DNA from: Tenrec ecaudatus
Taxonomy: Eukaryota > Chordata > Mammalia > Afrosoricida > Tenrecidae
NCBI RefSeq assembly: GCF_050624435.1
Contig: NC_134538.1
Span: 121,493,937-121,557,936, forward strand
Direction of reading: 5' to 3'
DNA length: 64,000 nucleotides
The position numbers and the translations under genes were made by a program. This document shows positions 8,745 through 54,639 of the stretch, piece by piece. Position 1 is the first letter of the stretch, and each line of letters starts with the position of its first letter. The notes under the pieces were generated by a model. The model was not told the DNA's origin, searched no databases, and worked only from the letters and a program-made list of their open reading frames with translations.

Positions 8745-8896
8745 AGGAGCCCTGGTCGCAGAGTGGATTATATGTTGGGCTGTGGACCACAAGATCAGCA
8801 GTTCAAAACCACTAGCTGCTCCTTAGGAGAAAGATGGGCCATACCTGTCCTCCAAGGGTTGCTATGAGTCAGAATTGACTCAATGACAGTGAGTGG
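8745..8896 (+). mobile_element. AfroSINE, internally shortened
   Basis: GGAGCCCTGGTCGCAGAGTG head and GCTATGAGTCAGAATTGACT tail. The middle is shorter than usual. Confidence 0.87.
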
Positions 8897-9395: not shown

Positions 9396-9405
9396 AGTTC
9401 TAGAG

Positions 9406-9581
9406 CAGTGGTTCTCAACCTTCCTAATGCTGTAACCCTTTAATACAATTCCTCATGTTGTGGTGACCCCCCCCCAACCATAAAATTATTTTCGTTGATG
9501 CTTCATAACTAATTTTGCTACTGTTATGAATCAGGCAACCCCCGTGTAATGGTCATTCGACCCATAGGTTGAGAACCACTG
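9406..9581 (+). mobile_element. SPIN-like hAT non-autonomous element, copy 1
   Basis: 176 bp from CAGTGGTTCTCAACCTTCC to GTTGAGAACCACTG, with inverted ends and 8-bp target duplications TTCTAGAG (9398-9405) and TTCTAGAT (9582-9589). The internal text (accataaaattatttt, gctactgttatgaatc) matches my memory of SPIN non-autonomous elements. It is shorter than copy 2 through internal deletion. Confidence 0.75.
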
Positions 9582-10429: not shown

Positions 10430-11000
10430 GTGTTTGGTCTGTCTCCAGTAGTTACCCACTAGGTAAGTGACAAACTGTCAACACTACAACCTGGTGAGGA
10501 GGACCCTAAAGGGTCACACATCTTTCTCACTGGTGGTCCCACTAGGCTTGTATACATTTCTGGCTGTGAGCAGGCGATGAATTCTGAGGTAAGCTCAGGC
10601 CTTCTTGAGGGATAGGCAATGCCGGAGATGGGGGGAGGGATGAAAGTGGAAGGCTGAGAAACTAGACTGTAGGTACTGGAGCGTGGAGCCCAGAAAGACT
10701 TGAACAAACCTTCAGCCTGTGAAGTAGAGATTTAGCATGTCACCTTTAGTAGCTTACCTGGTCTTTTCTGCACCACAGTCTCCTTGTAAAGTGGGGGTGG
10801 TGAAAAGAAAGACCTAAGACCGTAGGTCTAGCCTGCTCCGTGTCCCCTCTGATATGACTGTGAGCAGGGAGCGTCTTCTTGTGGCCACTCTTGGTGGGTT
10901 TCTAGTCGGTGAGTCAATCATGATGTCAGGGAGGCCATGGAGAAATTGCTGACATTGAGACAACTCATTCCAACATACACTGAAACATGCCAGGACGCTC
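10430..11000. other. No feature recognised
   Basis: Unique-looking sequence. Nothing coding or repetitive is supported. Confidence 0.45.
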
Positions 11001-11705: not shown

Positions 11706-12460
11706 TAGGACTGTTTTAGTGAAGCAACTCAGTATGCCCTGAATACCTGCCCCAATCCGGGTGTGCATGCCTCTGGCGAACTAATAGCCAAAGTAATTAA
11801 AAACTAGATCCTTTCCCTATTTGTTCCTCATTCCTAAATTGTGCCCCTTGCATAACCGGGAGAGTGGTGCTATCATCCCTTCTGAGGTCCGTGGGGCCTC
11901 TCCTCACCACCTTGCCCCTGTCTGACCGGGTGTTGCCCTGTCTTGAGATAACCCTGGCTTCTGCCGCAACACCTGGCTGCCTTCGCGGCTCCACTCAGCC
12001 TTTCAGAGAATCTGGCCTGCACTCCCATGCCCTTTTCTCCTCTCAACTCGCTCTTGATCCAGTCATGACAGTCATAAAAAAATCCGACTCTTGCTCAATA
12101 GCAGCATACACCTGGCAGTAACAAATGCCAAGATGCAAGGTGAGAATAACACTGCCTATAATGGTTATGGTTATGTGGCAGCTTAACTAAACCATGATTC
12201 TCAGTGGTTTGGCAGTAATATAATAATATAGTAGTTTCTCATTTTTTTAATCTTTCACAGAATGCTGATTTTTTTATGACTACCTGACCTTTGGAAACTA
12301 ATGTGGATAAGAGAGGACGACATGTATTCCTCCACTATTTTCCTTCATCCAGAATGTTCTCGCTCGGTCTTGGATGAACTTTGTGCTGTTTATTATCATG
12401 CTTTTATGGTTTTTCAAAAATTCCTGTGTTATTTCGATGAGATTGTAAGCTGGAGAAAAG
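11706..12460. other. No feature recognised
   Basis: Unique-looking sequence before the 12.46-kb hairpin. An 85-codon frame is probably chance. Confidence 0.45.
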
Positions 12461-12461
12461 A

Positions 12462-12496
12462 TAAGTTGGCTGATGCATAGTCAATCAGCCAACTTA
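12462..12496. repeat. Perfect 13-bp hairpin with 9-nt loop
   Basis: TAAGTTGGCTGAT at 12462-12474 and its reverse complement ATCAGCCAACTTA at 12484-12496, loop GCATAGTCA. Confidence 0.85.
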
Positions 12497-12939
12497 CTTC
12501 ATGCATCTGATCTTATTTTTTGTGAATTGAATGAGTAACCTAAGTTATAATGAGCGCCTTTTCCCTGCTTTCTTCCCTTGCCAAAGGTTCTTCCTTCTTG
12601 GCCAAACTGACAATGAATGGAACCATGCCTTAAACATATTCCCCTAATTCTTAGGTTTTCAGTTCAGGCTGCTTTACCAATACCTTGCTGGTATTCAAGT
12701 ACTGGGTACTTTGTACTGTTGGGAGACACAGAATAACCCACAGAATGGAAGGAAAGATGGATCATAGCTTGACAGAGACACCCTTCTCCGCCATGTACCC
12801 CACCAGAATTAAACTGGGGTACAGAGGCGGTGGATTATTTAATGTAGCTCTTCTAAGCACTGTGTCTCTAACTCCCATCAAAGGACTCTTTGCTGCATGG
12901 GTCTGGGTAAGAAGGTGGGGGAAGAAACTGATGGGATTC

Positions 12940-13440
12940 ACCTATGAGTCATTGTTAACAGGCTGTAACTGTAAGGGCCATCCTGCTGGGTATAAAATGA
13001 GCCCTTTGGTAGCAAGAATGGGAAACTCATTACCAGTAGAGCTTGGAATGGAGCACATCCTCCGGATCCTTAGGTTCTTGCCCAGTGAAACTTCCTGATC
13101 CAAAAAACAGCTGTGACATCTGAGGAATGGCAACAGAACCAGGAGCCAGAGCATAAGCCAGGGGTGGGCTTCCCAGCCCACAAAGCAAGAAAAGTTCAGT
13201 GCTTGTGGAGTGGGGTGCCTCTGGGCACTTAATTGGGGAAGCTGGACTTGCTGACCTACAGCACTTGAGCTGAATGCCTTCAGGTCAGGCTTACAATGGA
13301 AAGACATGCTCTTTGGCCATGAATTAGCAGCCCTGATACATTTGTACCAAATCCTGACTGAACATCTGTATCCTGAGCCTTTCTCTCCTACATTGTAACC
13401 TGTTAACTGAGAGTTCTATGTGGCCACTGTAATGAATTGT
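12940..13440 (+). repeat. Unidentified repeat family R1, copy A
   Basis: Shows the same ordered blocks: GTATAAAATGAGCCCTTTGG, AACTTCCTGATCCA, CAACAGAACCAGGAG, TCTGGGCACTTAATTGG. Its end abuts the SPIN-like element. The longer open frames here are incidental. Confidence 0.6.
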
Positions 13441-13451
13441 AAAACCTAAAG

Positions 13452-13955
13452 TAGCCGCTCTTAAACTGTGGGTCACGACTCCTGTGGGGGGGCGAACAAC
13501 CCTTTCACAGGGGTCGCCTAAGACCATCAGAAAACAAATATTTCCAATTGTCTTAGGAACTAAGACACCGCTCCTCTATCCCTCTCCAGACAGGTCTGCC
13601 CACATGCAGATATGCCCGCATATGAGTACCCGACGTGAAGACTGTTACCTATGCTGTATCATGCTTCGAGACAAAATTTCATTTATTTGTCAGAAATATT
13701 TCACAATATATAATTACATATTGTTTTTGTGATTAATCACTATGCTTTAATTTTTTTAATCACTGTACTTTCATTATGTTCAATTTGTAACTATGAAAAT
13801 ATATCCTGCATATCAGATATTTATATGACATTTCATAGCAGTAGCAAAATTACAGTTATGAAGTAGCAACAAAACTAATTTTATGGTTGGGGGGTCACCA
13901 TAACATGAGGAACTATATTAAAGGGTCACAGCATTAGGAAGGTTGAGAACCACTG
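13452..13955 (-). mobile_element. SPIN-like hAT non-autonomous element, copy 2 (longest)
   Basis: About 504 bp, inverted relative to copy 1: the left end has GTGGGTCACGAC and the right end GGTTGAGAACCACTG. Flanks ACCTAAAG (13444-13451) and ACCTAGAA (13956-13963) are a diverged 8-bp duplication. It retains the AT-rich core around AACATAATGAAAG/GATTAATCAC that copies 1 and 3 lack. It ends about 260 bp upstream of the TP3-like TATA box. Confidence 0.75.
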
Positions 13956-14216
13956 ACCTAGAAGAAATGGAGAGAGAGAGTATGAGGCAGAACACATGAG
14001 AGAAGGGTGATGGGTCACTTTGGGGTAAAGCCTTTCAGGAGGGTGCTAAGGAAGCACTACTTTTCTACAACCAGATCCTCTTGGCCTCCCCAGCACTCCT
14101 GCGCTCCAGAGATAGGTCAAGAATGGGCCTTTGTGAGGTATGCACTCCCTGTGGGGGGAGGGGTCGTGCCTTGCTGACCAAACAAAGCTGAAAGCTCATC
14201 ATTCCCCTGGAGAGAG

Positions 14217-14227
14217 GTATATATGGA
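14217..14227 (+). promoter_or_regulatory. TATA-like box of the TP3-like gene
   Basis: The sequence GGTATATATGG lies 43-53 bp before the ATG, so a start site about 30 bp downstream would leave a 5' UTR of roughly 20-25 nt. Short TATA-driven promoters are typical of protamine and transition-protein genes. Confidence 0.5.
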
Positions 14228-14269
14228 GAGGACAGGGCTCCCTGGGGTAGACAACTAGGAGGCTTCAAC

Positions 14270-14656
14270 ATGACCAGTGTGACCAGGAAATCAAGGGGGC
14301 CTCGTGCACCTAGGAGGGCACGGACTACAAGCACCAAGAAGGGGAAGAAGAGGAAGACTCTCTCTCAGCCCAGGTCTAGAAGCAGTGGCAAGGTCAGCTC
14401 CCAGGTTCTTGTCCATGCCCTTCCTCCATTGTGTGGCACCAACTCCGCCCCAGCCTCACCTTTCTGTCCCTTCTTTTCTCCCCCAACCCAGTGACTGTTT
14501 GGATTTATCTTGTTATACCAGGTGTTGAAATCACAAAAGAGAGTAAAAAGATCGCTTCGAGGGACTTCAAGGAAAAAATCCAGTTCTAAAGCTAAAACTG
14601 CTTCGAGAAGACAGAAGCGAGCGAGAAGAACCATCAGATTTCATCCATTACCATAG
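14270..14656 (+). CDS. Spermatid nuclear transition protein 3-like, two exons
   Basis: Join 14270-14392 and 14522-14656, giving 85 residues. Composition is 34 Lys/Arg (19 R, 15 K), no Asp/Glu and no Cys, as expected of a DNA-packaging protein that replaces histones in spermatids. The intron is 129 bp, phase 0, with donor AAG|GTCAGC and acceptor ATACCAG. A TATA-like box lies 50 bp upstream of the ATG and AATAAA about 150 bp after the stop, so promoter, splice sites and poly(A) signal are all in place. The segments TTSTKKGKKRKTLSQPRSR and SRRQKRARR closely resemble nuclear transition protein 3 of boar and ram as I remember it. That identification is from memory. A nearer acceptor at 14491 would give an immediate stop, so the 14521 acceptor is required for the full protein. 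It could be a retained copy rather than an expressed gene. Confidence 0.65.
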
Positions 14657-14808
14657 AGAGCCCAAAGCAGCCAGGCCCAGCCGGGTGGGCGCTATGGAAC
14701 TACCCACTCCGAGACGAGACCTGCGGCTTCCTGGCTGCTGAGAAATGGCCAGGCACAGAGCGATGCCAACACCAGTGTGACATGGAAGGTGTGAAAAGCC
14801 CTTCAGAA

Positions 14809-14814
14809 AATAAA
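14809..14814 (+). terminator. Poly(A) signal of the TP3-like gene
   Basis: AATAAA 153 nt after the TAG stop, followed by a GT-containing stretch (CTCGTGTTT). It is in the correct strand and place for the two-exon gene. Confidence 0.5.
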
Positions 14815-15264
14815 ACGAATTAGGCGCACAAACAGCTCGTGTTTCACTCGTGTGAGATTGTCCCTCAAAACGAGAATCTGAGAGAGGTTCAGTGTCTTTG
14901 ATCCAAAGTGAATGCCAGCCTCCCCCGCCCACCCCAGTCTCCCTGCGGAGCGAGCGAGGCAGCCTGCCCGGGAGGGGAGGGTGGGACACTGGGCACCCCA
15001 CACATGTTGGAACAGGGTTCCCCACCTGTGGCAGGCCAGTGAGACAGGCCGTGAGTGAACGCCAAGGGAGCAAGGCCCACACACTTGCAAGTTGTGGTTT
15101 TACATACTTCCTTTTTGATTGAGGTTTTTCACTGTTTTATTTTGTTGTTAGCTTTTTTGTTTCTGTTTGTATGTTTTTCAATATTTGAAATTCAGGGTGG
15201 GTGACTAGAGACAGGAATCGGATTGTTGGTTTCTGGGAGTCCAGCAGGGACGTGACAGGAAAGT

Positions 15265-15395
15265 GGGGAGCAAGTGAGCACTAAAAGAAAATGTAGAAGT
15301 GACTGTAGGAGTGATGGTGTCACTCTTTGATGTGAGCGAACTATTGAATTGTATGACATGTAGGTTATGTCCCAATAAAACTTTAAAAATTAAAA
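15265..15395 (+). repeat. Repeat with shared 3' terminus, copy 1
   Basis: Ends GAATTGTATGACATGTAGG then TTATGTCCCAATAAAACTTT. The same terminus is at 40,340, so this is the 3' end of an interspersed element, possibly an older LINE. The 5' limit is unknown. Confidence 0.5.
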
Positions 15396-15424
15396 AGGAA
15401 TGCCCATGTGTCATCTCTAAACTC

Positions 15425-15620
15425 ATTGCCGTCGATTGATTCCAACTCATAACGACGGGGGTAAAGACAAGGGTAAAACTGCCCATGTAGGTTTCCGAGA
15501 CAGCTTTTTTTTTTTTTTTTGACAGCTATACTTTCCAGAAGCAGAAAGCCTCGTCTTGGAGTGGCTAGTGGTTTTGATTTGTGGTAATCCAATGCATAAT
15601 TATGCCACCAGGACTACTGA
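15425..15620 (-). mobile_element. AfroSINE
   Basis: ATTCCAACTCATAACGACGG near the left and CACCAGGACT head at the right, antisense, with an internal T-run at 15506-15521. Confidence 0.8.
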
Positions 15621-16865
15621 AATGTATTCTAGTTGGCTTAAAGACAATGGGAAGGGAAAAGGAGGAAGCAAAAATGTCCCAGGAGACAGTAACCACCTCT
15701 CAGTTATGATGCATAATTAAGGTGCTGAGGTCACTTGGGTGTGATTCAGGTTGGCAGTTGAAAGTTCCTTGCTTTTGAGGGTTCCCTGGTGTTGTGTCTC
15801 CCTGGTGGTGAGTTGTAACAAACATTAGGACCACATGAGGTTCAACCAAGAGATGAGCGGAAAGCTCATCAAGGTCTGAGTTTGCCTAGTTCCCCGACTC
15901 TCGCCTTCCCCATTAAACGTTCCTTCACCCCAGGCAGGAGGGTTTGTTTATTGGTGGTTTATAAAGAGCTAGCCTCAGCACTAATTTTTTTTAATCTCCC
16001 CAAAAGAATTTTGAAAATCTGGACCCTCAAAAGGTTTTCAATGAACATTCAGAACTTTTCATCATGAGTTTAATTATTTACTAAGGAGGCAATAGAGGTA
16101 ACTTGTGATCGTTTTAAATACTGATATTTATAATAAAACTGTTACATCAGCCTTTTAAAAGTTTTCCATCTGAATTAGATATAAATTCTAGCCCACTTTG
16201 CTACAAAATTAGTCTAGGGAGGCACTACCAGTCAGGGTTATTTTTTTCCCCTCAAAATTTAGAATCTGCTCAGGTAAGATAAGTAATTCTTTACCATGTA
16301 AGAATTGATTGTTTTATTATTATTGTGGTTTGGGTCTGTCATGCTCATTTTTAATGACCAGTGTTCCTAAGTATTGACTGAACCATGAAGAGAATCGCTG
16401 AGGTAGCTCTGGTGTAGTGAGCGTGTCTGCAAACATGAGCACTTCCAAGCAGCGGTGTCTGACCCCACCGGATGCAGTTATTCAGTGCTACTCACTTAAA
16501 AGCACATGTCAAGGTTGTACCGCATATTTTATGAACTTGTCCTCACAATACATTTTATTAAGGAAAAATAGAAGATAGTGTATTTGTATAGATTTGCTGA
16601 AATTTAAAATGTTTATGGCATAACATTGAAAATCCTCTATCCTATATCGCATTTTCCCCAACTCTTGACATTTCTGATAAATTTAAAACTAGTGCCCTTT
16701 CTCTAGAAAGATGGATGCACAGGAAACAGCTTTGGTTTGCCTTGGGAAGAAGAACTGATAGCTGGGCACATGTGGGAGAGAAACAGATCCTTTTGTGGTT
16801 AGTAAATTTTAAGCCATGTGAATATTAATGTAAGATTAATCAAATGTAAGATGTAATTTGGAGAA
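15621..16865. other. No feature recognised
   Basis: AT-rich unique sequence with no supported gene or repeat. Confidence 0.5.
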
Positions 16866-16867
16866 AG

Positions 16868-18870
16868 ATTTTTTTAAATCATTTTATTGGGGGCTTGTAC
16901 AATTCTTATCACAATCCATCATCCATCCATTGTGTCAAGCACATATGTACATTTCTTGCCATCATCCTCCTCAAAACATCTGCCTTCTACTTGAGCCCTT
17001 AATATCGGCTCCTCATTTTTCCCCTCCCTCCCCACTCTCCCTACCTCATGAACCCTTCATCATTCATAAATGATTATTTTGTCATATGTTACACTGTCCG
17101 ACATCTCCCCCCGCCCTCTGCTGTCCATCCCCCAGGGAGGTAGCTATACATAGATTCTTGTAATCGGTTCCCCCTTTCCACCCCACATTCTCTCCACCCT
17201 CCAGGCATTGACACTCTCACCAGTGGTCCTGGAGGGGTCATCTGTCCTAGATTCCCTGTTTCCAGTTGCTATCCGTACCAATGTACATCCTCTGGTCTAG
17301 CTACAGCTGTAAGATAGAATTGGGATCATGATAGTGGGGGGCAGAAAGCATCTAAAAACTAGAGGAAAGTTATATGTTTCATCGTTGCTACCTTGTACCC
17401 TGACTGGCTCATCTCCTTCCCACTACCCTTCAGTAAGGGGGTGTCCATTTGCCTACCAATGGGCTTTGAGTCTCCACTCTGCACTCACCAACATTTACAA
17501 TGATAGGATTTTTTTTTCTTTGATGCCTGATAATTGATCCCTTCGGCACCTCTTGATCACACAGGCTGGTGTGCTTCTTCCATGTGGGCTCTGAGCCAGA
17601 TGGCCACTTGTTTATCCTCAAGCCTTTAAGACCCCAGACGCTGTATCTTTCGATAGCCGGGCACCATCAGCTTTCTTCACCACATTTGCTTATGCACACA
17701 TCAGGAAGCAATCATGTCAGGAAGGTTTGCATCATGGAATGCCAATTTAATAGAACAACGTGTTCTTGCATTGAATAAGTACTTGAGTAGAGGCCCAATG
17801 TCCATCTGCTGCCTTAATACTAAACCTATAAATAAATGCACTTAGATCTATTTCCCCACCCTCCTATATAAATATATTTACATATGTACATGACAGTATT
17901 TAGACCTCTATAAATAAATAGCCTTTGTCACCAAGTTCTTCTATTTTACTTTCCTCGTCCCACTATCATGCTCAGCCTTCATTTGGATTTCAGTAATTTC
18001 TCTCAGTTACCTTGCCCTTGCTGATTCCCTACCAGGCCTCTCACACCCTCCTTGCCACTGATTTTTGGATCACTTGTCGCTCCCCTGTCTCTGAGTTGGT
18101 CAGCACCACCTCCTCACCCCGCCCCCCTTTCCTGTGTCCCCCCGAACCATTTGTCCCGTGTTTTCTCCTTCAAGCTATCCATCCAGCCTATTTTATCTAG
18201 ATAGATTTGTAGAGATAACAATATGCACCAAAAATCAAGCCATAGCAAGATAGGTGATGAATGAGAACACAGTGATGAAAACCAATGACCCGTAAAAGAA
18301 TAAATTAAAAGAAAATAAATTTTAAAAGAAAGAAAAATCTGTAAATAGATCAAGGTCTGATTTTTTATTTCTAGGTGTGTCCTTCAGTTAGGTCCAATGG
18401 GGTACAACGCTGTGACCCCAGAGTCTGTCCTTTGTACTCCTTCGGGGTCTCCCTGCTCTGCTCCCATGGTTGCTCTGCTGCACACCTTTAGTGGTTTGCC
18501 TCAGTGTCACACAATCAGTCCAGGCAAGTACTGACACTGAAAATCCAGTGTTGTCCCCCTTAGGGCCCTGGGCCAGCAAGGGACGGCGTGTCTTGTGGGA
18601 TCAGCCATAAGGGGATATTGTCCTCCAGGCCTGGTGGGTCAGGATGTGCTCCACTCTCTCTTCCTCCCCCTTCATTTGCTCCCATGTACTCTGATCAGAC
18701 ATGCCCCTCTCCCCTAGTTGTAGCTTCAGTGCCGTCCTCTCAAATAAATTCTTCTGGGGTGGCTGCATTTGTCTGGCACTGGCTTTAAGTCTGGTTCCTC
18801 TTTCCCTCCCAATTTTCTGGCCTGGCAGCAGGAGCTCCTGATGGGTGAGTCCTATCGAGTCGCCATTTTC
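16868..18870 (-). mobile_element. L1 3' UTR fragment, about 2 kb
   Basis: Minus-strand copy of the long L1 3' UTR. It holds the terminal CATTTTATTGGGGGC, the polypyrimidine tract, one copy of the ~250-bp module and the upstream segment (GATCAGACATGCCCC) that corresponds to 46.15 kb of the large L1. The right boundary is approximate. Confidence 0.85.
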
Positions 18871-41700: not shown

Positions 41701-44700
41701 TCCTAAGATGTTCTGGTGGCTCAACAGGTAAGCGCCGGGTTGCTAACTGAAAGGTCAGTGGTTTGAACCCACCAGTGGCTCCATAGGAGACAAATGTGGC
41801 AGTCTAATTCCAGGAAGCTTACAGTCTTGAAATCCTTGTACAGCAATTTTACTCTGCCCAGTAGGGTTGATATAAAGTCAGAACTGAGTCCCTGGCAACC
41901 AATCTGGTTTGGTTTTCATCCATTCCTACCCTAGCACTCTTGTTAACTTTTTATATTTGAAATAGGAATGAATTCTTTAGTGGTGCCCTAATACATTTAG
42001 AGTTTAGAATGTTGTTTTGTCTTTTGTAATTCTTCCATGATCCATGCACTCTTTCAAAACCTCTTATCAAGTCCCTTATACCTTGTATGGAACCTATATG
42101 GCTACGGAATAGAAATCAAGCCAAAGATAGCCGGTGCGCTCAAAGCGCTTGTAATAGCCTAGTTAGGAACCAGCAATCCCTTTCCAGGAAGAGCTGGGAA
42201 AAAAACACCACAGAACCCATGGCCGTTTAGTCAGTTCCCGGACACACAGTGACCCTTGATGGTAAAGCAAGTGAAAGTGCCCAGAGCCAGACGGTGATCA
42301 CTTGTACAGAAGCTGCCGAGCACATCTTTCACCACAGCATAGGTGAGGGCGTCTCGGTTTCAACCACTGACCTCCACGTTTCACCTGAGTGCACGATCAC
42401 TGTGTCATCAGGGATCCAATAGCTATTTTTTTAAAAGCTATGATGGGATACACAATATATATTTTTAAGTTTTACTGTCAAATATGGGGTCTGTTACATA
42501 ATCATTGATTTTCAAAATGCACAAAAAAATATTCTTTGCTCATGGTGAAAACGAAAATGGACCAAGGGCAGGGTTTTCTCTGTGGATTATAGTTTGCCCA
42601 TCCCTGGTCTAATTAACAGTGTGATAATAAACTAGTTAATATAATTGTGATAATTTTTCAAGAAAAACAGAGTACACAGTGGGGACACAGAAGAAGAGGA
42701 TCAGGGTTCAGCTCTTGGCAGTGAGGCACCTCAGGCCAGCTTCTAGGGAGTAGAGGCCTTGATTTTCTCATCTAAAATAGGTGTTTTATACTGACAAAGA
42801 TTGCTGATTTCAGAAGAAAATTAGTAAATTCAAGAGAACTAGAAAGGGTAATAACTAGATTACCGTATATACTTGAGTATAAGCTAACCGAAATATCAGC
42901 AAAGGCACCCAATTTTACCACAAAAACTGCATTAAAAATGTGCTGGAAGTCAGCAAGACAACCCTACTAATGGCAAAAGAAAATAAATAATAAAAATCAG
43001 GGCTGAGATTCAGGGGAGGGAAAATAAGATAACTACGGAAAGTTACTACTGTTAAAAGTTGGTTCTTTGAAAGGATAAACAGAATCGACAGACCACTGGC
43101 AAACCTAACCAAAGAAAGGATGGAACAAATTCCAATAGCAAGAATAAGGGATGAAAGTGGGGACATTACAACAGACCCTAATGAAATCAAAAGAATAATT
43201 ACACAGTACTACATAGGACTGTACTCCAGTGAATTCAACAACTTGGAAGACATGGACAAATTCTTGGAAAAACAATCCCTCCCTAGACTATCCTCGATGG
43301 ATATCAAGAATCTCAACAGACCCACAGCAATAGAAGAAATAGGCTAGGTTCTCAAGGATTGCCATCCAAAAAATCCCCTTCACTGGAGAATTCTACCAAG
43401 CATTTAGGTAAGAACTAACACCAATCCTACACAAACTCTTTCAGAACATAGAAAAAGACAGCGAACTCCTTCTATGAAGCTAGTATAACTCTGATACCAA
43501 AACCGGACAAGGATCCCACAAGAATCGATAACTACAGACCAATATCCCTAATGAACACTGATGCAAAAATCCTTAACAAAATACTGGCCAATAGAATACA
43601 AAAGCATAAAAAACAAATAATTCACCACAACCAAGCGGGATTCATACCAGAATGGTTCAACATCTGAAAGACCATTAGTATAATTCGCTACATTGACATG
43701 AAAAACTGCCATACTTACCTGGCAGGGGAGATACCATGATCATGACATGAAAAAGTATAAGAAAGAACCACTTGATAATATCGATAGATGCAGAAAAAGC
43801 ATTCGACAACATTCAAAACCAATTCCTCTTTATGACACTTGAGAAGATAGAAATGGAAGGAAAATTCCTCAAGGCAATACAAACTATATGAAAAAACAAC
43901 ACCCAGAGTGGTAGTCAAAGGAGAAAAGACTAACACAATCTCACTGAAAAAGGAGACCAGACAAGGATGCCCCTTGTCACTACTCTTATTTAACATCATG
44001 CTGGAGGTTTTAGATAACAGCATAAGGCAAAGAAAAGACATCAAAGCATTCATCTGGGGAAGGAAGAGGTGAAACTATCATTATTTGCAGATGATATGAT
44101 TTCACATAAGGAAAATCCCAAAAACTCCACAAGAGAATACTGGCAGCAATAGAGGAGTTTGGCAGAGTGTCAGAATACAAGATCAATAAACAGAAGTCCA
44201 TCAGATTGCTATACACATCGGATAAGACCACAGAAGAGGAGATCAAAGAGGTGGCACCCTTCACAACAGCCAAACACAAATTGAAATATCTAGGGATATA
44301 CCTGACTAAAAGATCTATATGAGGAAAACTACAGAACACTATTACAGAACACTATAATAAGAAACCAAGAGTGACCTCAAAAAATAGAAGAATATCCCAT
44401 GCTCGTGGATTGGAAGGCTCAATATACTAAAGATGTCAGTTCTGCCCAAGGCACTATGTAAGTTTAATGCAATCCCGATACAATTAAACTCACCTTTCTT
44501 CAAAGAAATGGAAAAACTGATTACCAACTTCATACGGAGAGGGAAGAAGCCCAGAATACAGTGGGAGGGCTTGCTTTACCTGACTTTAGCACATACTATA
44601 CAAGCACATGTGTCAAAATCGCATGGTATTGGCATAATGAAAGATACTCAGACCAATGGAAAAGAATTGAAAACCCACAAATAAAATCATCAGCATACAG

Positions 44701-47700
44701 ACAACTGATCTTTGATAAGGGCCCAAAAAATATCCAATGGGAAGCAGATATCCTCTTTAACAAGTGGCACTGGGAAAAGTGCCTATCTGCCTGCAGAAAC
44801 ATGAGGCAAGACCCTAATCTCACTCCATGCACAAGGATAAACTCAAGGTGGATCACAGAACTTGAAGTAAACCTCCAAACTATCAGGGCCATCAATGAAG
44901 GAATTGGGACAAACATGAGAACCTTGGCGCAGGGCATACATGGGCTATCAGAAATACGGAAGGACATAGACACAGAGGAGGCACAAACTGACAAGTGGGA
45001 CATACTAAAGATAAAACATCTGTGTACATCAAAAGAATTCACCAAGACAGTAATAAGAGAGTCCACCACGGACTGGGAAAACATCTTCAGCAATGACACA
45101 TCAGACAAAGGCCTTATTACTAAAATCTACAATACTCTTCTAGCTTCCAAAAAGAAAAAAACTAATTGCCCGCTGAGAGTGGGCAAAGGACCTAAACAGA
45201 AGTTTCACAAGAGCAGAAATCTGAATGGCCAATAAAGATGAGAAAAATGTTCCCAATCTTTAGACATACAAGAAATGCAAATAAAAACAACAAAAAACCA
45301 CCTAACACCCTCAAAGATAGCCCAATTCAAAAAATCAGAAAGCAACAAGTGTTGGAGGGGCTGTGGGGAGACAGGAATTCTCATACACTGCTGGTGGGAC
45401 TGTAGGGATGTAGGTATGCACAACCACTATGGAATTCGATCTGGCAATATCTAAAACAGATGGAAATCGAGCTACCATGAGACCCAGAAAGCCCCCTACT
45501 GGGCATATACCCAGAAGAGGCAAGAAACAAACGACAACTAGACATCTGTACTCAAATGTTCATTGCGGCACAATTCACACTTGCAAGGAGTTGGAAATAA
45601 CCAATATTTCGAGCAACTGACGAGTGGTACATACATACAATGGAGTACTACACATCGCTAAAAAGCAGTGATGAACGTATGAAGCATATCGCCCCATGGG
45701 AAGAACTGGAGGAAATCATGCTAAGTGAAGTAAGGATGAGTACCACATGAGTCCATTGAAGTAAGCGTAAAAAAAACGCAAAAGGGGCACAGGGAAAAAG
45801 CTACTATATACAAACATTCCTGGGGCGAGTCCCAGGTAGTATGGTAGTATGGTAGTATGGTAGGGGCCAGACATGTGGTAGGGGGCGGGGAGAGGTAAAA
45901 AATAAAAAAAAGAAATGGGTAGCAGGGGAACAGGGCACTAACCCACTGAAGGGGAGGATATTGTTTATATCTCCACAGGGAAAGAGAGACCAGACTTCAA
46001 CCCGGTGCTGCAAGATGTGAATGCAACATGCCGGCATGGAGTAGGGAGCCAGTGGAGAGGTCTGAGGGTCCGTCCCCAATCACAACTACGTGGACTGCTG
46101 CCCCTCTGCCCAGAAGAATTTATATCAAAGGAAGCACTGAAGCTGCAGCTCAGGGAGAGGGACATGTCTGATCAGAGCAGATGAAGGGAGAGGAAGAGAG
46201 TGGAGCACATCCTGGCCCACCACGCCTTGACGACGATATTCCCACTCAGAGCAGCCAATCTACAGAGATGACCATATGGCCTGCCCCCACTATGAGACAC
46301 AACATTACTCACTGATCCATAGCCCTACAGGGGACAACACTGGAGATAGCCCTACAGGGGACAACACTGGAGTGTGGGAATTGTGCCCGGTCTGATCCCA
46401 CCACACACCGAGGGAAAACACTAAGGGAGTGCAACAGAACAGCAAGGGGAACAGAGCAACAAAGAGTCCCCAGGGAATACTAAAAATAGACTTTGGGGCC
46501 AGGGCTTTGCACCCCATCAGACTTGACCGGAAAACACTCCTAAAGGCCAACAAACAGTCCTTGAACTTACTAGAAACTTTTCTTTTTTGGTTGTTGTTTT
46601 GTTGTAGGATGGTTTTTGATTTTGTTTTTGTCATTGGCTTTTTGTTGTCATTGTTTTGTTTTCTTTTGCTGCTTGGTTTTGCTCTGTCCTGTTTTGTGCA
46701 CGTTATTATCTCCGCAGGTCTGTCTAAATAAGAAAGGCTGGATGAACAATCTGGAGGAGAAAACAGGACTGATGATTCCAGGGGGAAATGGGAGAGGGGA
46801 AGGTGGGGGGAAAAGTTGTGGTGTTAACAAAGCCACAGACAAGTGAACAAGAAGTGATCCAAATTGTTGGTGAGGAGGGTATAGGAGGCCTGGTAGGGTG
46901 TGATCAAGGGTAATGTAGCCGAGAGGAATTACTGAAGCCCAAATGAAGGCTGAGCATGATAGTGGGACAAGAGGAAAGTCAAAGGAAATAGAGGAAAGAA
47001 CTAGGAGGCAAAGGGCATTTATAGGGGTCTAAATAAAGACATGTACATATGCAAATATATCTATATATGAGGGTGGGAAAATAGATCTATGTGCATATAT
47101 TTATAGGTTTAGTATTAAGATAGCAGAAGGACATTGGATCTCCACTCAAGTACTCCCTCAATGCAAGAGAATACTTTGTTCTATTAAACTGGCATTCCAT
47201 GATGCTCATCATCTTCCTGACACGATCGCTGAAGACAAATGGATGCATAAGCAAATTTGGTGAAGAAAGCTGATGGTGCCCAGCTCTCAAAAGATATACC
47301 ATCTGGGGTCTTAAAGACTTGAAGATAAACAAGCGGCCAACTAGCTCAGAAGTATCAAAGCCCACATGGAAGAAGCACACCAACCTGTGTGATTACAAGG
47401 TGCCGAAGGGATGAGGCATCAGGCATCAAGAACAAAAAATCATATCATTTTGTGCTCACCTCCCCAATAGGATCACTGAAGGCAAATGGGTGCATAAGTA
47501 AAGCTTATGTGGTGAACAAAGCTGATGGTGCCCGGCTATCAAAAGATATAGCATAGGGGGGGTCTTAAAGGCTTGAAGGCAAACAAGCGGCCATCTAGCT
47601 CAGAAGCAACAAAGCCCACATGGAAGAAGCACACCAGCCTGTGCAATCATGAGGTGTCGAAGGGATCAGGTATCAGGCATCATCAGAACAAAAAAATCCT

Positions 47701-50700: not shown

Positions 50701-53700
50701 AAAACACATAAAAATAAACTATTAACAAACTATGGCGCTAAGAGTAAGCACCCACAATGAGCACGAAACACTGAAAATACCTGGAAGCTATTTCTATGTC
50801 CTTCTTGGAGTAGAGGAGGGAAGAGAAATTCATGTGCAATGACCACATTCTCCCAGTTCTAGTTGATGCTCTCGTGGCCTTCAATGTGTTCCATTTAATA
50901 CCACTAAGATGATGCCCAGCCACAACCCAACAAAACCTGCATCTTACTACACTGGAACCAAGTACAGCAATGAATGCATTTTCATAAAACACGTGCCACT
51001 TGCAGTGCCCGGAAAGAGCCGTCAACATGCAGATGCATTGGTAAGGTCCTGCACTGGTTTCTCAGAGCTAGCCTAACTACAGTAGCCCCTTTAGCAGTCC
51101 CCTCCAAAACCACTACGGCTAAGTATTTTGTTGTAGAAAGAATTAAAAATACTTGTCAATACCAATGCAAATCCGTTACTGGACTTAATCGTGCAGCTAA
51201 ATAGCTACTAGATTAAAAGCAGCTCTGCTGTGGAGAGTTTATCATTAACATAGGAAGAAGAAAACGTAAAAGCAGAAAGACACTCACTGTGTTCACTTGC
51301 TAATACAAAAGATTCAGGCGTTCTCTCAGGTAGGGGAGGAGGTGAATCTTCACTGACATCAACATCTACACAAAATGCATAAAAGTTAGACACATTATTC
51401 AAAATGAGAGCTGTCTTGACATTCTACAAATCCTGTCACAAGGATAAATAACCTAGTTATCAAAAAGTTAAATTTGAGTAAGAAGCCCTTGCCCCTCAAC
51501 TTGTTCTCCAGAAGTATCGTGGAGTTTACTGAGCAAAGAAGGCTGAGCTTCATTGCCACTGCACAGTGCAAACGACTCTCCCGTGACATTCCTTGACACC
51601 CTCCAGACATGAATCACGCTGTCCTCAGGCAGTAGGCCAAGGACTGACTAGCCTGGCCGATGAGGCTTTGAATCCATAAAGGAAAGCTTTGTCATTTGAC
51701 TTAAGCCAGTTGTTTCCCAGATGGACTGAACTGCTTAACTCCTGTCATGATTTTTGCTGTAGTGATGTATCATACGTCTTATTTACTTGACATTTTAAAT
51801 CCCACTCATCTCTTAACTTTAACCCTGTGTAAGGCAGTAACACTGTGAAACACATCTGAGATACCAGCCACTTATAAAATGGCCATGAAAACGTAATTTA
51901 AATTTTAACATTTTTGTTTACTGCTTAAATCTTATGAACAGTGCTGAGTTTCATCCTGATCTTTTTGTACCTACCATCAACACTGGAACCTTCTCTTGCA
52001 CAAATGAAAGTGAGCTACTAAAGAATTAGCGCCTTGTTTCAGGAGCAGTGGCAGTCTGAGCCGTCAGCAGACTTCTTGCTCTCTTGTTTTTAACATTTCA
52101 CAGGAAAGAGATGGTTAATAAAAGCAAGGGACCCACGATCCTGGCCTTGTGATAAAATTTCATAACTGAGAGGACAAACTGGCAAGGGCAGTCTGGTTTG
52201 TTTACTTTGAGAATTTATCCAATCTCTCAGAAACTCTGTACCACTTCACTCTTGGGAGTCTCCCTCTTTTTTTATTTTAAACTTTCACTGTCCATTAGGT
52301 GAAGGTTTACAAAGCAGATTACCATTTTTATATTCAACAACTTATCAAAACTCCAAACGCCCTGCCTTGTGTTCCCATCATTTTGGTCCTACTGCTGGAT
52401 ATTGTCGTGTCCTTCACCTGTCTACCCCGTGACCTCTGATAGGCTCACGCTGAAGGACTAGAGCAGTTCTCAACCTGTGGGTCACGACCCCCTTGAGGAA
52501 GGGCGTCGAACTACCCTTTCACAGGGGTTGCCCAAGTCATAGCAGTAGCAAAATTACAGTGATGAAAGTAGCAACGAAAATAATTTCATGTTTGGGGGTC
52601 ACAACACGAGGAGCTGTATTAAAGGGTCATAGCATTAGGAAGGTTGAGAACCAATGGCCTAGTCTACACGGGTGTTTTCTAATAACGGCCTTCGCTTGAC
52701 GAGGAGCACGGTGGTTCCGTGGGAAAGCATGAGAGCACTGACGGAACGCTGGGCAGTTTGAGCCCACTAGCCATTCAGCAGTAGAAAGACGCTGCCGTTT
52801 ACGGCCTGGAAAACACTATGAGGAAGCAGTTCTACTTATTCCTACCGGGTCAACATGACTCCAAATGGCACGATGGCAGCAATGGGTGGGCCCTTGCTTC
52901 TCCTTGGAGCTCTAGATGATCAGATGTATGTTATATACTTTTGGTTTAGAAGCTGTCCTATTAGTGATGGCACATTTTGAATAATAGGCAAATTTTACCA
53001 AATACTTCATAGACTACAGTATGGTGGAAACACAACTTTTAGGGACATTAGCAAGCAAGCAAACAAACAAACAAAATTCGTGTGCCTCCCTCTACTGGAA
53101 TTTTTGCTTCATTGTTGTGGTCTGGAACTGAATCAGCATCTCCAAGCTGCGCCTGTACTTAAAGCTACAATACAGAGGAAAAAGGAGAGAAATCTTTCCC
53201 TCACAACAATGAAAATATTTTTGAAACATGGTATCCATAATGCAATGTGATCAAGTTACAGTAATAAATGTATGAAAAAAATTTATCTTAAAAAACTCCT
53301 AATTTCTACTGTAGGTTGTTCTAAAGTAGTGTGGAATAAAATATAGCAAACTGACAGTGGTAAAGTGTTTATGGCACTGACCAGTACATAGCAAAAATAT
53401 TTAGGCACTAGATATTATTTTACCTTTTTTAGCACCTGGATATATCGTTCCTGCCGTATCATGTCTAGCAATGGACATTGGCAAAACTTTCCTAGTAGAA
53501 ATGCTTTCAGTACCAGAGGCAGCAGAAACGGTGGCACTTGCTGTAGAAATATTCATTTGATTCTTGGTCAAAGCACCATCCAAGTTCCTTTCGTCTGCGT
53601 CTGAGTCATCAGAGTGAAGGGGATTAGTAAAACTGAGGGGGGCTGTGAACACAGGCAAACTGTTTGGATGATCCACAAGATCATGAGATTCAATTTGTGT

Positions 53701-54639
53701 TGTGGGGCTCGGTGTTAAACTCACAGTTTTCATAACCTGACAGTGGCTATCAGAGGATTTGCCTTCAGAAGAATCACGCACAAGTAGGGCATTTTCAGGT
53801 CCATGAAATGACCACATTGTAAATCCTTTCTCATCAAGAGGCAAACAGTCTGGCCTTGGGGGTGTGTCTGAATTCTCCTGTGTTTCTTCCGATGGAGTAG
53901 CGGGATGCTTGTTTAACTGCGTGACACTGTAGTCCACACAAGAATTCTGAGAAATCTCACCAACTTTTAAATCCCCTGAACTCAGCTCTTGAGGCTTAGC
54001 AATCTTATCAGTTATACAAGGTGTAGCAGGTTTAATTTTAATTGCATGTCCCCTATTCAAGAGTGCGTTCCCTTCAAAACTCTTTGGTCCCTCTTGGAGT
54101 GGGACCTTCTTAATTTCGAAACTTAAATTTCGCTCCAATTTTTTCTCTAGCTGTTCAACAGTGGGTTCATTTTTCCCTGGGAGGTCTGGTGATTTATTAT
54201 AGTTCCTGTTGAGATCTGTGGCATGATGTTCTGTTGAAACCATGTGCAACACTGGCTTTGGGTGATATCTGTCATTGTCCTGCCACACGGTAGTGACTGT
54301 TGGAAACGCTGAAGGGGGCGAAGGTGTCAAGATGGGTGGCACAGGGTGAGGTTCCGGCGGCTGCAGTATTTCTTCCTTAGCATCTCCTTCAACAAGGCAA
54401 CTGAAAAGAGCATAGGGTGTTCATCGTGTTAAAAATGAGTTTATAGAGGGCAACTATTGCAGCTAAGAGTCAAGTTTTGCCATATTCAAATTTTGCAACT
54501 TTCATAAACACAGAATAAAAGTATCCGTTCAAATAAAACGTGACCCACAATACCTGCGGGTCCTTGGTGGCTTGGGGGGAGGAGAATCTTGTTTTTCAGG
54601 ATCTATGGAACTAACCATATTTTCAGTGCCCATTTCATT
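38671..54639 (-). CDS. PTPN12: PTPN12 (PTP-PEST), 3' seven coding exons, joined
   Basis: Protein tyrosine phosphatase non-receptor type 12 is a cytosolic phosphatase that acts on p130Cas, Shc, paxillin-linked and PSTPIP-linked substrates. Exons read on the minus strand: 54639-54554, 54400-53424, 51365-51288, 50444-50380, 49502-49472, 40776-40693, 38732-38671. Every junction has an AG acceptor and GT donor, phases agree throughout, and the joined frame gives 460 codons plus TGA. I recognised it by long matches to the remembered human protein: a proline-rich PPPKPPRTR segment, [21 protein letters not shown], the NPLH motif (known Shc PTB site), [13 protein letters not shown], and the C-terminal homology tail [20 protein letters not shown] (known PSTPIP-binding). 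The catalytic domain is encoded upstream, beyond the window. Seven exons match exons 12-18 of the 18-exon human gene. The reading frame looks functional. The oddity is a short in-frame loss in exon 17. Confidence 0.96.
38735..39640. other. PTPN12 intron 17, unique part
   Basis: Intronic. No repeat or exon is recognised. Confidence 0.5.
39640..40340 (+). repeat. Repeat with shared 3' terminus, copy 2
   Basis: Ends GAATTGTATGATATGTAAAT then TATGTTCCAATAAAACTATT, matching the 15.3-kb repeat. Upstream is a 122-codon frame at 39644-40012 with a hydrophobic C-terminal half. I do not recognise it and think it incidental. Lies in PTPN12 intron 17, antisense. Confidence 0.45.
40693..40776 (-). CDS. 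PTPN12: PTPN12 exon 17, internally shortened
   Basis: 84-bp exon with TTTTAG acceptor and GTAATT donor, phase 1 in and out. It encodes [20 protein letters not shown] and SPTEATDIG. Compared with the human segment as I remember it, about eight residues of a cysteine-containing stretch between the HxE and SDK positions are absent, in frame. The flanks on both sides align well, so the exon assignment is secure. Confidence 0.92.
40780..41705. other. PTPN12 intron 16, 3' part
   Basis: Intronic sequence with no recognised repeat until the AfroSINE. Confidence 0.5.
41708..41922 (+). mobile_element. AfroSINE in PTPN12 intron 16
   Basis: GTTCTGGTGGCTCAACAGGT head, GGTTTGAACCCACCAGTGGC, tail ending TGGTTTGGTTTT. 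Confidence 0.88.
42195..42415 (-). mobile_element. Diverged AfroSINE
   Basis: AACCCATGGCCGTTTAGTCA at the left and TTTCAACCACTGACCTCCAC toward the right match the antisense SINE. Confidence 0.6.
42863..42948 (+). repeat. MITE-like repeat, left part (split by L1)
   Basis: Begins TACCGTATATACTTGAGTAT and matches the reverse complement of the element at 4541-4662. The remainder resumes at 48482-48516 after the L1, where AACTCAGCT and a degraded terminal repeat are seen. Confidence 0.6.
42949..48465 (+). mobile_element. L1 LINE, 5'-truncated, with long 3' UTR and 3' transduction
   Basis: A 5.5-kb insertion bounded by target duplications at 42934-42948 and 48466-48481 (AAAAATGTGCTGGAA, one extra T on the right). 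It begins inside ORF2, between endonuclease and reverse transcriptase. The RT region keeps recognisable [10 protein letters not shown] and FADD motifs (the latter near 44090), and a 224-residue intact C-terminal frame lies at 44561-45235. Several frameshifts and stops make it non-autonomous. ORF2 ends at about 45750. The 3' UTR then runs about 2.5 kb to AATAAA at 48272-48277. A further ~170 bp ends at a second AATAAA (48440) and an A-tract. It sits in PTPN12 intron 16, antisense to the gene. Confidence 0.93.
48291..48463 (+). other. Candidate 3'-transduced sequence carried by the L1
   Basis: Unique-looking sequence after the L1's own poly(A) signal but still inside the target-site duplications. 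It ends with AATAAA at 48440-48445 and an A-run at 48464-48470, so it appears to be flanking DNA from the source locus that was co-transcribed and inserted with the L1. Confidence 0.65.
48482..48516 (+). repeat. MITE-like repeat, right part (after L1)
   Basis: Continues the element interrupted at 42948. AACTCAGCT aligns to AACCTCAGCT of the other copy on the opposite strand, and the end (TTAGTA) is a degraded match to CGGTA. Confidence 0.45.
48520..49205. other. PTPN12 intron 16, 5' part
   Basis: Intronic. Nothing recognised. Confidence 0.5.
49210..49335 (-). mobile_element. AfroSINE, partial
   Basis: AACAAACCCACTGACACGGG, then GATTCTGACTCAGAACGACT; the head is missing. Confidence 0.8.
49472..49502 (-). 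CDS. PTPN12: PTPN12 exon 16 (31-bp microexon)
   Basis: A 31-bp exon with CCTTAG acceptor and GTGAGTG donor encodes [10 protein letters not shown] plus one base, matching the human GLITSENEKC segment. The phase (0 in, 1 out) links exons 15 and 17 without a frame break. The following intron is about 8.7 kb because it holds the large L1 insertion. Confidence 0.9.
50380..50444 (-). CDS. PTPN12: PTPN12 exon 15
   Basis: 65-bp exon with TTCTCAG acceptor and GTGAGT donor. It starts in phase 1 and ends in phase 0, encoding (N)[21 protein letters not shown], collinear with the human segment rich in SQE/SE residues. Too short to call without its neighbours, but phase and splice sites fit exactly. Confidence 0.9.
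51288..51365 (-). CDS. PTPN12: PTPN12 exon 14
   Basis: 78-bp exon flanked by a TGTAG acceptor and GTGAGTG donor, phase 1 in and out. It encodes [19 protein letters not shown] and VLASEH, the second proline-rich motif, which is also shared with the related PEST-family phosphatases PTPN22 and PTPN18. Confidence 0.95.
51370..52265. other. PTPN12 intron 13, unique part
   Basis: Intronic. No feature recognised. Confidence 0.5.
52268..52440 (-). mobile_element. Older L1 3' end fragment
   Basis: ACTTTCACTGTCCATTAGG and GTGAAGGTTTACAAAGCAG resemble the antisense 3' end of an older afrotherian L1 subfamily that differs from the main lineage here. Recognised from memory only. Confidence 0.4.
52464..52656 (-). 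mobile_element. SPIN-like hAT non-autonomous element, copy 3
   Basis: About 193 bp in PTPN12 intron 13, from CAGTTCTCAACCTGTGGGTC to GGTTGAGAACCAATG. Flanks GACTAGAG and GCCTAGTC share the CTAG core expected at these targets. Same orientation as copy 2 with the core deleted. Confidence 0.72.
52700..52892 (+). mobile_element. AfroSINE
   Basis: GGAGCACGGTGGTTCCGTGG head, then GGCAGTTTGAGCCCACTAGC, tail CGATGGCAGCAATGGGTGGG. Confidence 0.8.
53424..54400 (-). CDS. PTPN12: PTPN12 exon 13 (large linker exon)
   Basis: 977-bp exon, the longest in the gene, encoding most of the non-catalytic PEST-rich tail. Acceptor CTCTTTTCAG and donor GGTAAAA are both clear. The frame starts [10 protein letters not shown] and ends GAKK plus one base. 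It includes the NPLH motif followed by an acidic serine patch ([12 protein letters not shown]), an NPXH-type phosphotyrosine-independent Shc-binding site in the human protein. No frameshift or internal stop is seen. It diverges modestly from human, for example in the [17 protein letters not shown] stretch, as expected for disordered sequence. Confidence 0.96.
54554..54639 (-). CDS. PTPN12: PTPN12 exon 12
   Basis: 86-bp exon between a T-rich tract ending in CAG and a GTATTG donor. It starts in phase 0 and encodes [11 protein letters not shown] followed by the proline-rich PPPKPPRTR stretch, which in this family is the SH3-binding region contacting p130Cas. It ends two bases into a serine codon completed by the next exon. 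The intron to exon 13 is only 153 bp. Confidence 0.93.

Follow-up and report, generated by a model that had tools for sequence, protein, structure and literature searches.

A probable two-exon gene for a small, sperm-chromatin-like basic protein between PTPN12 and RSBN1L, with an intronless relative near KDM8

Results

A compact gene-like unit between PTPN12 and RSBN1L

We analysed a stretch of DNA of 64,000 nucleotides, referred to as the window (C80:121493937-121557936). A preliminary description had reported here a compact unit consisting of a TATA box, an exon, a 129-bp intron, a second exon, and an AATAAA signal, and all of these elements were present in the sequence (Table 1). Upon recounting, the joined product matched the composition described for it, i.e., 85 residues, of which 34 (40%) are Lys or Arg (15 Lys, 18%; 19 Arg, 22%) and 14 are Ser, with neither Asp/Glu nor Cys.

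Table 1. Features of the unit and its surroundings (positions in the window)
Feature	Position	Strand	Evidence or remark
5' flank common to the intronless relative, upstream of the TATA box	13986..14217	+	alignment to L003
TATA-like box TATATAT	14218..14224	+	read in sequence
Coding exon 1, 41 codons, MTSVTRKSRG...RSSGK	14270..14392	+	ATG at 14270, ends in phase 0
Intron, 129 bp, GT-AG, phase 0	14393..14521	+	GT at 14393, AG at 14520-14521
Rival acceptor AG, exon from 14492, immediate TGA	14490..14491	+	splice-site scoring
Coding exon 2, 44 codons and TAG (14654-14656), VLKSQKRV...RFHPLP	14522..14656	+	
3' UTR, AATAAA at 14809-14814	14657..14830	+	read in sequence
PTPN12 last coding exon, C-terminal residues	38674..38736	-	95% over 21 residues to the human C-terminus
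Long open frame, probably large PTPN12 exon	53404..54420	-	identified by sequence resemblance

The C-terminal end of PTPN12 was located within the window, which bears out the earlier placement of the gene downstream of PTPN12. On the other side, about 6.1 kb to the left of the window, a minus-strand frame beginning at C80:121487875 was read as exon 1 of RSBN1L; a 24-residue match was found there (E 1.9e-4), and the longer frame resembles the N-terminus of RSBN1L. The gene lies between these two neighbours, both of which run on the other strand; the end of PTPN12 is about 24 kb away and the start codon of RSBN1L about 20 kb. PTPN12 and RSBN1L are both on human chromosome 7, and with these neighbours the gene is autosomal. 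For the corresponding bovine interval, passages of PMC8622392 name RSBN1L and an adjacent ncRNA. No title in the literature searched concerned a transition protein gene between PTPN12 and RSBN1L.

Comparing the window with itself at E 1e-6 detected repeats at 13832-13963 and 15338-15382 and none over the exons, and we rejected a repeat origin of the exons on this basis. The region from 12000 to 17000 contained no tandem repeats, and searching Rfam at gathering thresholds gave no match. Three copies of a short interspersed element, ~88% alike, were observed at 13832-13963, 9398-9530 (minus strand), and 52537-52662, the first of which ends ~310 bp upstream of the ATG; they resemble a hAT-type element that occurs in rodents and tenrecs. 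The strict AfroSINE motif had no match; looser forms recovered diverged copies, and diverged tails at 8859, 5212, 24830, and L003:1106-1146 resemble this family, in keeping with an afrotherian source. Open frames at 43033-43344 and 44468-45232 resemble remnants of LINE-1 ORF2.

Coding signal in both exons

In purine-rich DNA, codons for Lys/Arg (AAR, AGR) and acidic codons (GAN) are expected in neighbouring phases, and we used the phase of GA dinucleotides as a measure of coding signal on this rationale. The coding exons contain 28 GA dinucleotides, 12 in exon 1 and 16 in exon 2, and none of them opened a codon. The counts in the three phases were 0, 10, and 18 in total, 0, 1, and 11 in exon 1, and 0, 9, and 7 in exon 2. 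If all phases were equally probable, 0 of 28 would have a probability of (2/3)^28, i.e., ~1e-5, uncorrected for the choice of frame.

We also scanned the 17,560 stop-free 40-codon stretches on both strands of the window for loci in which 40 open codons encode 13 or more Lys/Arg and no Asp/Glu, and the two exons were the only such loci. In order-5 Markov sequences of the window, the rate was 0.325 loci per 64 kb, and a count of 15 was reached in 0 of 40 sequences. A real 200-kb stretch of contig C96 contained seven, including the intronless relative described below and another reaching 19 Lys/Arg, so the Markov null understates how often a single basic stretch occurs. One stretch on its own is not extraordinary; two in matching phase ~130 bp apart, bordered by a donor among the top 2.7% and an acceptor among the top 3.3% of sites in the window, are, and the argument for a gene rests on this phased pair together with the relative. 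The C96 locus that reaches 19 Lys/Arg, open and without an acidic residue over 40 codons, is at C96:123190655-123190909 (L012:5656-5910, plus strand). It lies upstream of the relative at a distance of ~65 kb, and neither the window protein nor that of the relative matched it in tblastn at E <= 10.

An intronless relative near KDM8

Using the 85-residue protein as a query against the genome (3.92 Gb, including the window itself, in which both own exons were recovered), we identified a stop-free match at C96:123255330-123255560 with 49% identity over residues 11-84 (E 1.1e-4). The corresponding frame (L003:1471-1743) is open over 90 codons from an ATG at 1471 to a stop ending at 1743. Its 90-residue protein contains 30 Lys/Arg, 3 acidic residues, and 1 Cys; the acidic residues indicate that the avoidance of Asp/Glu is not a rule of the family. 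On the same strand, KDM8 follows the relative at a distance of 64 kb (Pfam ARM_KDM8_N, 6.7e-15). Later exons of KDM8, a gene of human chromosome 16, were putatively recognised by short sequence words.

In a MAFFT alignment of the unspliced window sequence to L003, a gap of exactly 129 bases was opened, placed 5 bases inside the intron. When the gene was spliced as 14392|14522, it aligned to L003 with no gap across AAG|GTG. At the protein level, SSGK|VLK was matched to SSNK|VKK, and LRG-SRKKSS, in exon 2, is common to both proteins and the best-conserved stretch. The pair scored 146, compared to 56.8 +/- 8.1 for shuffled sequences, none of 1,000 of which reached 146. Searching the genome in reverse with the protein of the relative recovered window exon 2 (the match L031) only at E 7.9, and exon 1 was absent at E <= 10. 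This is what splitting a short protein over two exons would give, but the match is weak by itself.

The similarity to L003 extends beyond the coding region on the 5' side. The segment 13964-14217 aligned to L003:1151-1418 with a local score of 97, while random genomic segments reached at most 70.5 (0 of 400). Against order-1 resampled sequences, the flank test was weaker, with 7 of 500 scoring as high upstream of the TATA box and 1 of 500 further upstream. From the TATA box to the ATG, the similarity was reached by 0 of 500 resampled sequences and 0 of 400 random segments. The similarity of the 3' UTR was weak and borderline (19 of 400 random segments and 12 of 500 resampled sequences), and L003 showed no similarity to the intron (349 of 400 random segments scored as high) or to the DNA beyond the poly(A) signal (309 of 400). 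A copy made through RNA, from a transcript begun upstream of the TATA box, is suggested by the missing intron and by similarity that ends near the poly(A) signal. Alternatively, the DNA may have been duplicated and the intron lost afterwards. No branch-point pattern was found in L003.

The entire relative is overlapped on the opposite strand by a 227-codon open frame (L003:1236-1919, minus strand), which is probably a by-product of its codon make-up. Among the best-scoring genome candidates, neither protein gave further relatives at E <= 1. Two matches, L004 (E 2.6) and L005 (E 4.1), were rejected as chance; their DNA scores, 40 and 32, were no higher than the maxima of 40 and 37 obtained from 60 shuffles apiece. 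Two matches obtained with the protein of the relative, L030 (E 1.2) and L032 (E 8.5), were likewise taken as chance.

Choice of acceptor

The donor at 14393 ranked in the top 2.7% of the 3,372 GTs in the window as scored with a splice-site matrix, and has an unusual C at position +3. On the acceptor side, 14522 scored 6.99 (top 3.3% of 4,799 AGs), and the rival 14492, which has the better pyrimidine tract, scored 8.68 (top 1.5%). The 30 bases that acceptor 14492 would add are absent from the intronless relative. As the gene spliced to 14522 aligns to the relative without a gap at the junction, 14522 and not 14492 is the ancestral acceptor, in support of the splicing proposed in the preliminary description; use of 14492 would lead straight into a TGA, as was also stated there. 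A transcript spliced to 14492 and encoding a 41-residue protein from exon 1 alone would have the higher matrix score and the better tract in its favour; against it, the KDM8-side relative lacks exactly the 129 bases 14393-14521, and exon 2 carries its own codon-phase signal. We consider such a product very unlikely to be the one made. The intronless open relative is independent evidence for this junction and for coding constraint, and it suggests that the gene belongs to a small family.

Signs of coding constraint

Over the 85 codon pairs of the gene and the relative (NG86), dS was 0.99, a value near saturation that rests on about 62 synonymous sites, and dN was 0.505. The resulting ratio of ~0.51 was similar in both exons, and the difference between synonymous and nonsynonymous changes had a Fisher p of 0.017 (rounded counts). 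In simulations of neutral substitution alone at 0.5 per site, the frame remained open with its ATG in 81 of 5,000 cases for the gene and 82 of 5,000 for the relative; both real frames are open. Outside the intron, the gene-relative protein alignment contains small gaps of whole codons, which are not evidence of constraint because a protein-guided alignment makes them so by construction. From this comparison, the gene is apparently under coding constraint.

Comparison with known sperm chromatin proteins

The window protein resembled human TNP1, TNP2, PRM1, and histone H1.0 and H2B tails in composition only: between 325 and 669 of 1,000 shuffles scored as high, including 387 for TNP1, 336 for TNP2, 669 for PRM1, and 512 for the H1.0 tail, the one linker histone used. 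The relative had a weak excess over shuffles against TNP2 (7 of 1,000), which is one of 11 comparisons. We rejected the possibility that the gene is TNP1, exon 1 of which was found at C102:21906641 (L036) as the sole match in the genome (83% over residues 1-48, E 7.6e-14). Over the aligned part, this exon lacks one residue relative to human TNP1.

Neither a linker-histone domain nor any other Pfam family was detected in the window protein. The joined protein had no homologue in Pfam or among PDB sequences, and in a protein collection its seven candidates all lay above E 10; exon 1 continued into the intron had no candidate there. Pattern matches numbered 74 in viral contigs and 589 in prokaryote contigs, none of which was confirmed. 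These null results say little, as the collections contain few or no mammals. With 1 mismatch to TGACGTCA allowed, CRE-like (CREM) sites were absent from the promoter; the nearest of the 13 in the window are at 10921 and 15726.

Discussion

Given its architecture, codon-phase signal, and relative, we consider it very probable that the locus is a real two-exon gene; its small product is very basic and probably packs DNA in developing sperm. Our best reading is that of a TP3-type spermatid chromatin gene, i.e., a functional, autosomal two-exon gene whose 85-residue Lys/Arg/Ser-rich protein works like a spermatid nuclear transition protein; we assign this a probability of roughly two in three. From composition and architecture, we infer expression in spermatids, binding to DNA, and a role in the exchange of histones for protamines. 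In this scheme, haploid spermatids would make the protein, its charge would bring it into the nucleus, and it would bind DNA along its length during the exchange, to be released as its Ser/Thr residues become phosphorylated and protamines are loaded. The preliminary interpretation thus holds for a complete, apparently constrained two-exon gene of sperm-chromatin-like type, spliced to 14522, while its identification with TP3 is retained as a lead only.

Several other explanations were weighed against this one. The gene could be real and encode a small basic protein that is expressed elsewhere, such as a nucleolar, RNA-binding, or antimicrobial-type peptide. The link to spermatids is drawn from composition, architecture, and general resemblance, the protein matched no Pfam family, and the known sperm proteins were matched in composition only, all of which would fit such a role. 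The product, however, has no signal-peptide-like start by eye and no Cys, and a Lys/Arg/Ser-rich sequence that runs for 85 residues without an acidic one, encoded by a tiny TATA-driven two-exon gene, is typical of spermatid proteins. We regard expression elsewhere as unlikely. We are more doubtful still that the gene is a recently silenced one, i.e., a young pseudogene of a sperm basic protein that is still open. The C at donor position +3 and the better-scoring acceptor that would truncate the product are compatible with decay, but the sequence contains no stop, no frameshift, and no loss of the start codon, of a splice dinucleotide, or of AATAAA. Least probable, below even the truncated product from acceptor 14492, is a chance open frame in purine-rich DNA: basic open stretches do occur about once per 30 kb in the C96 sample (7 loci including the relative), but chance would have to explain that each exon carries a codon-phase signal, that the splice sites match, and that the genome contains a second, homologous frame without an intron.

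Reports of TP3 in boar and ram spermatids date back decades, and the name is scarcely present in the genome-era literature searched. As cited in PMC9258737, TP1 and TP3 were studied in nuclei of boar late spermatids (Akama 1996). In an excerpt of PMC12610818, a vampire-bat protein is described as 74.19% identical to 'spermatid nuclear transition protein 3' of Eptesicus fuscus (E 7.99e-29); by arithmetic, this percentage fits 69 of 93 residues and thus a bat protein of similar size. An excerpt of PMC7685427 places a 'spermatid nuclear transition protein 3-like' gene of water buffalo, the one gene of that name mapped in the literature searched, on chromosome label 25. We read this label as the X chromosome, because X and Y are among the associated chromosomes in that excerpt and bombesin receptor subtype 3 carries the same label. 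As these excerpts already use the name for bat and buffalo genes, the earlier suggestion that the gene is unannotated in most genomes has become uncertain. By this reading of the label, the buffalo gene is apparently X-linked, whereas the window gene sits beside PTPN12 on an autosome; the buffalo name may have been given by composition. The relative on C96 was considered as a counterpart of the X-linked buffalo gene and rejected, given the KDM8 gene 64 kb downstream. Orthology of the window gene to boar and ram TP3 is a plausible lead at most.

A further reading, which we offer as tentative and consider rather doubtful as a whole, is that placentals hold a hidden pair, consisting of an ancestral two-exon TP3-type gene and an intronless, RNA-mediated KDM8-side copy that carried its promoter along, both of which are used. 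If so, this lineage would have two sperm chromatin proteins in addition to TNP1, TNP2, and the protamines, and both genes would be autosomal and away from the site of TP3 in buffalo, which is apparently X-linked as far as the excerpt of PMC7685427 goes. Now that splice junctions, syntenic position, and a relative are defined, it can be asked which mammals keep the gene intact, and the gene model allows its use in spermatids and the growth or shrinkage of the set of transition proteins across placentals to be addressed directly.

Among known systems, TNP1 is close in Lys/Arg content: the window protein has 18% Lys and 22% Arg, and ~19% Lys and 21% Arg are quoted for TNP1 and TNP2 in an excerpt of PMC9258737. 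Like the window gene, TNP1 in this genome encodes a small, basic protein, and its exon 1 in L036 ends at a GT donor. TNP1 is a two-exon gene, and TNP2 and PRM1 are likewise basic, with few or no acidic residues and one intron. In contrast to TNP2 and PRM1, the window protein is free of Cys. The small size, the single short intron, the TATA box, and a 5' UTR that would be very short here recall the genes for protamines and transition proteins in general. Boar TP3 is likewise a small, Lys/Arg/Ser-rich protein without Cys, and this make-up is matched by that of the window protein (85 residues with 34 Lys/Arg, 14 Ser, no Cys, and no Asp/Glu).
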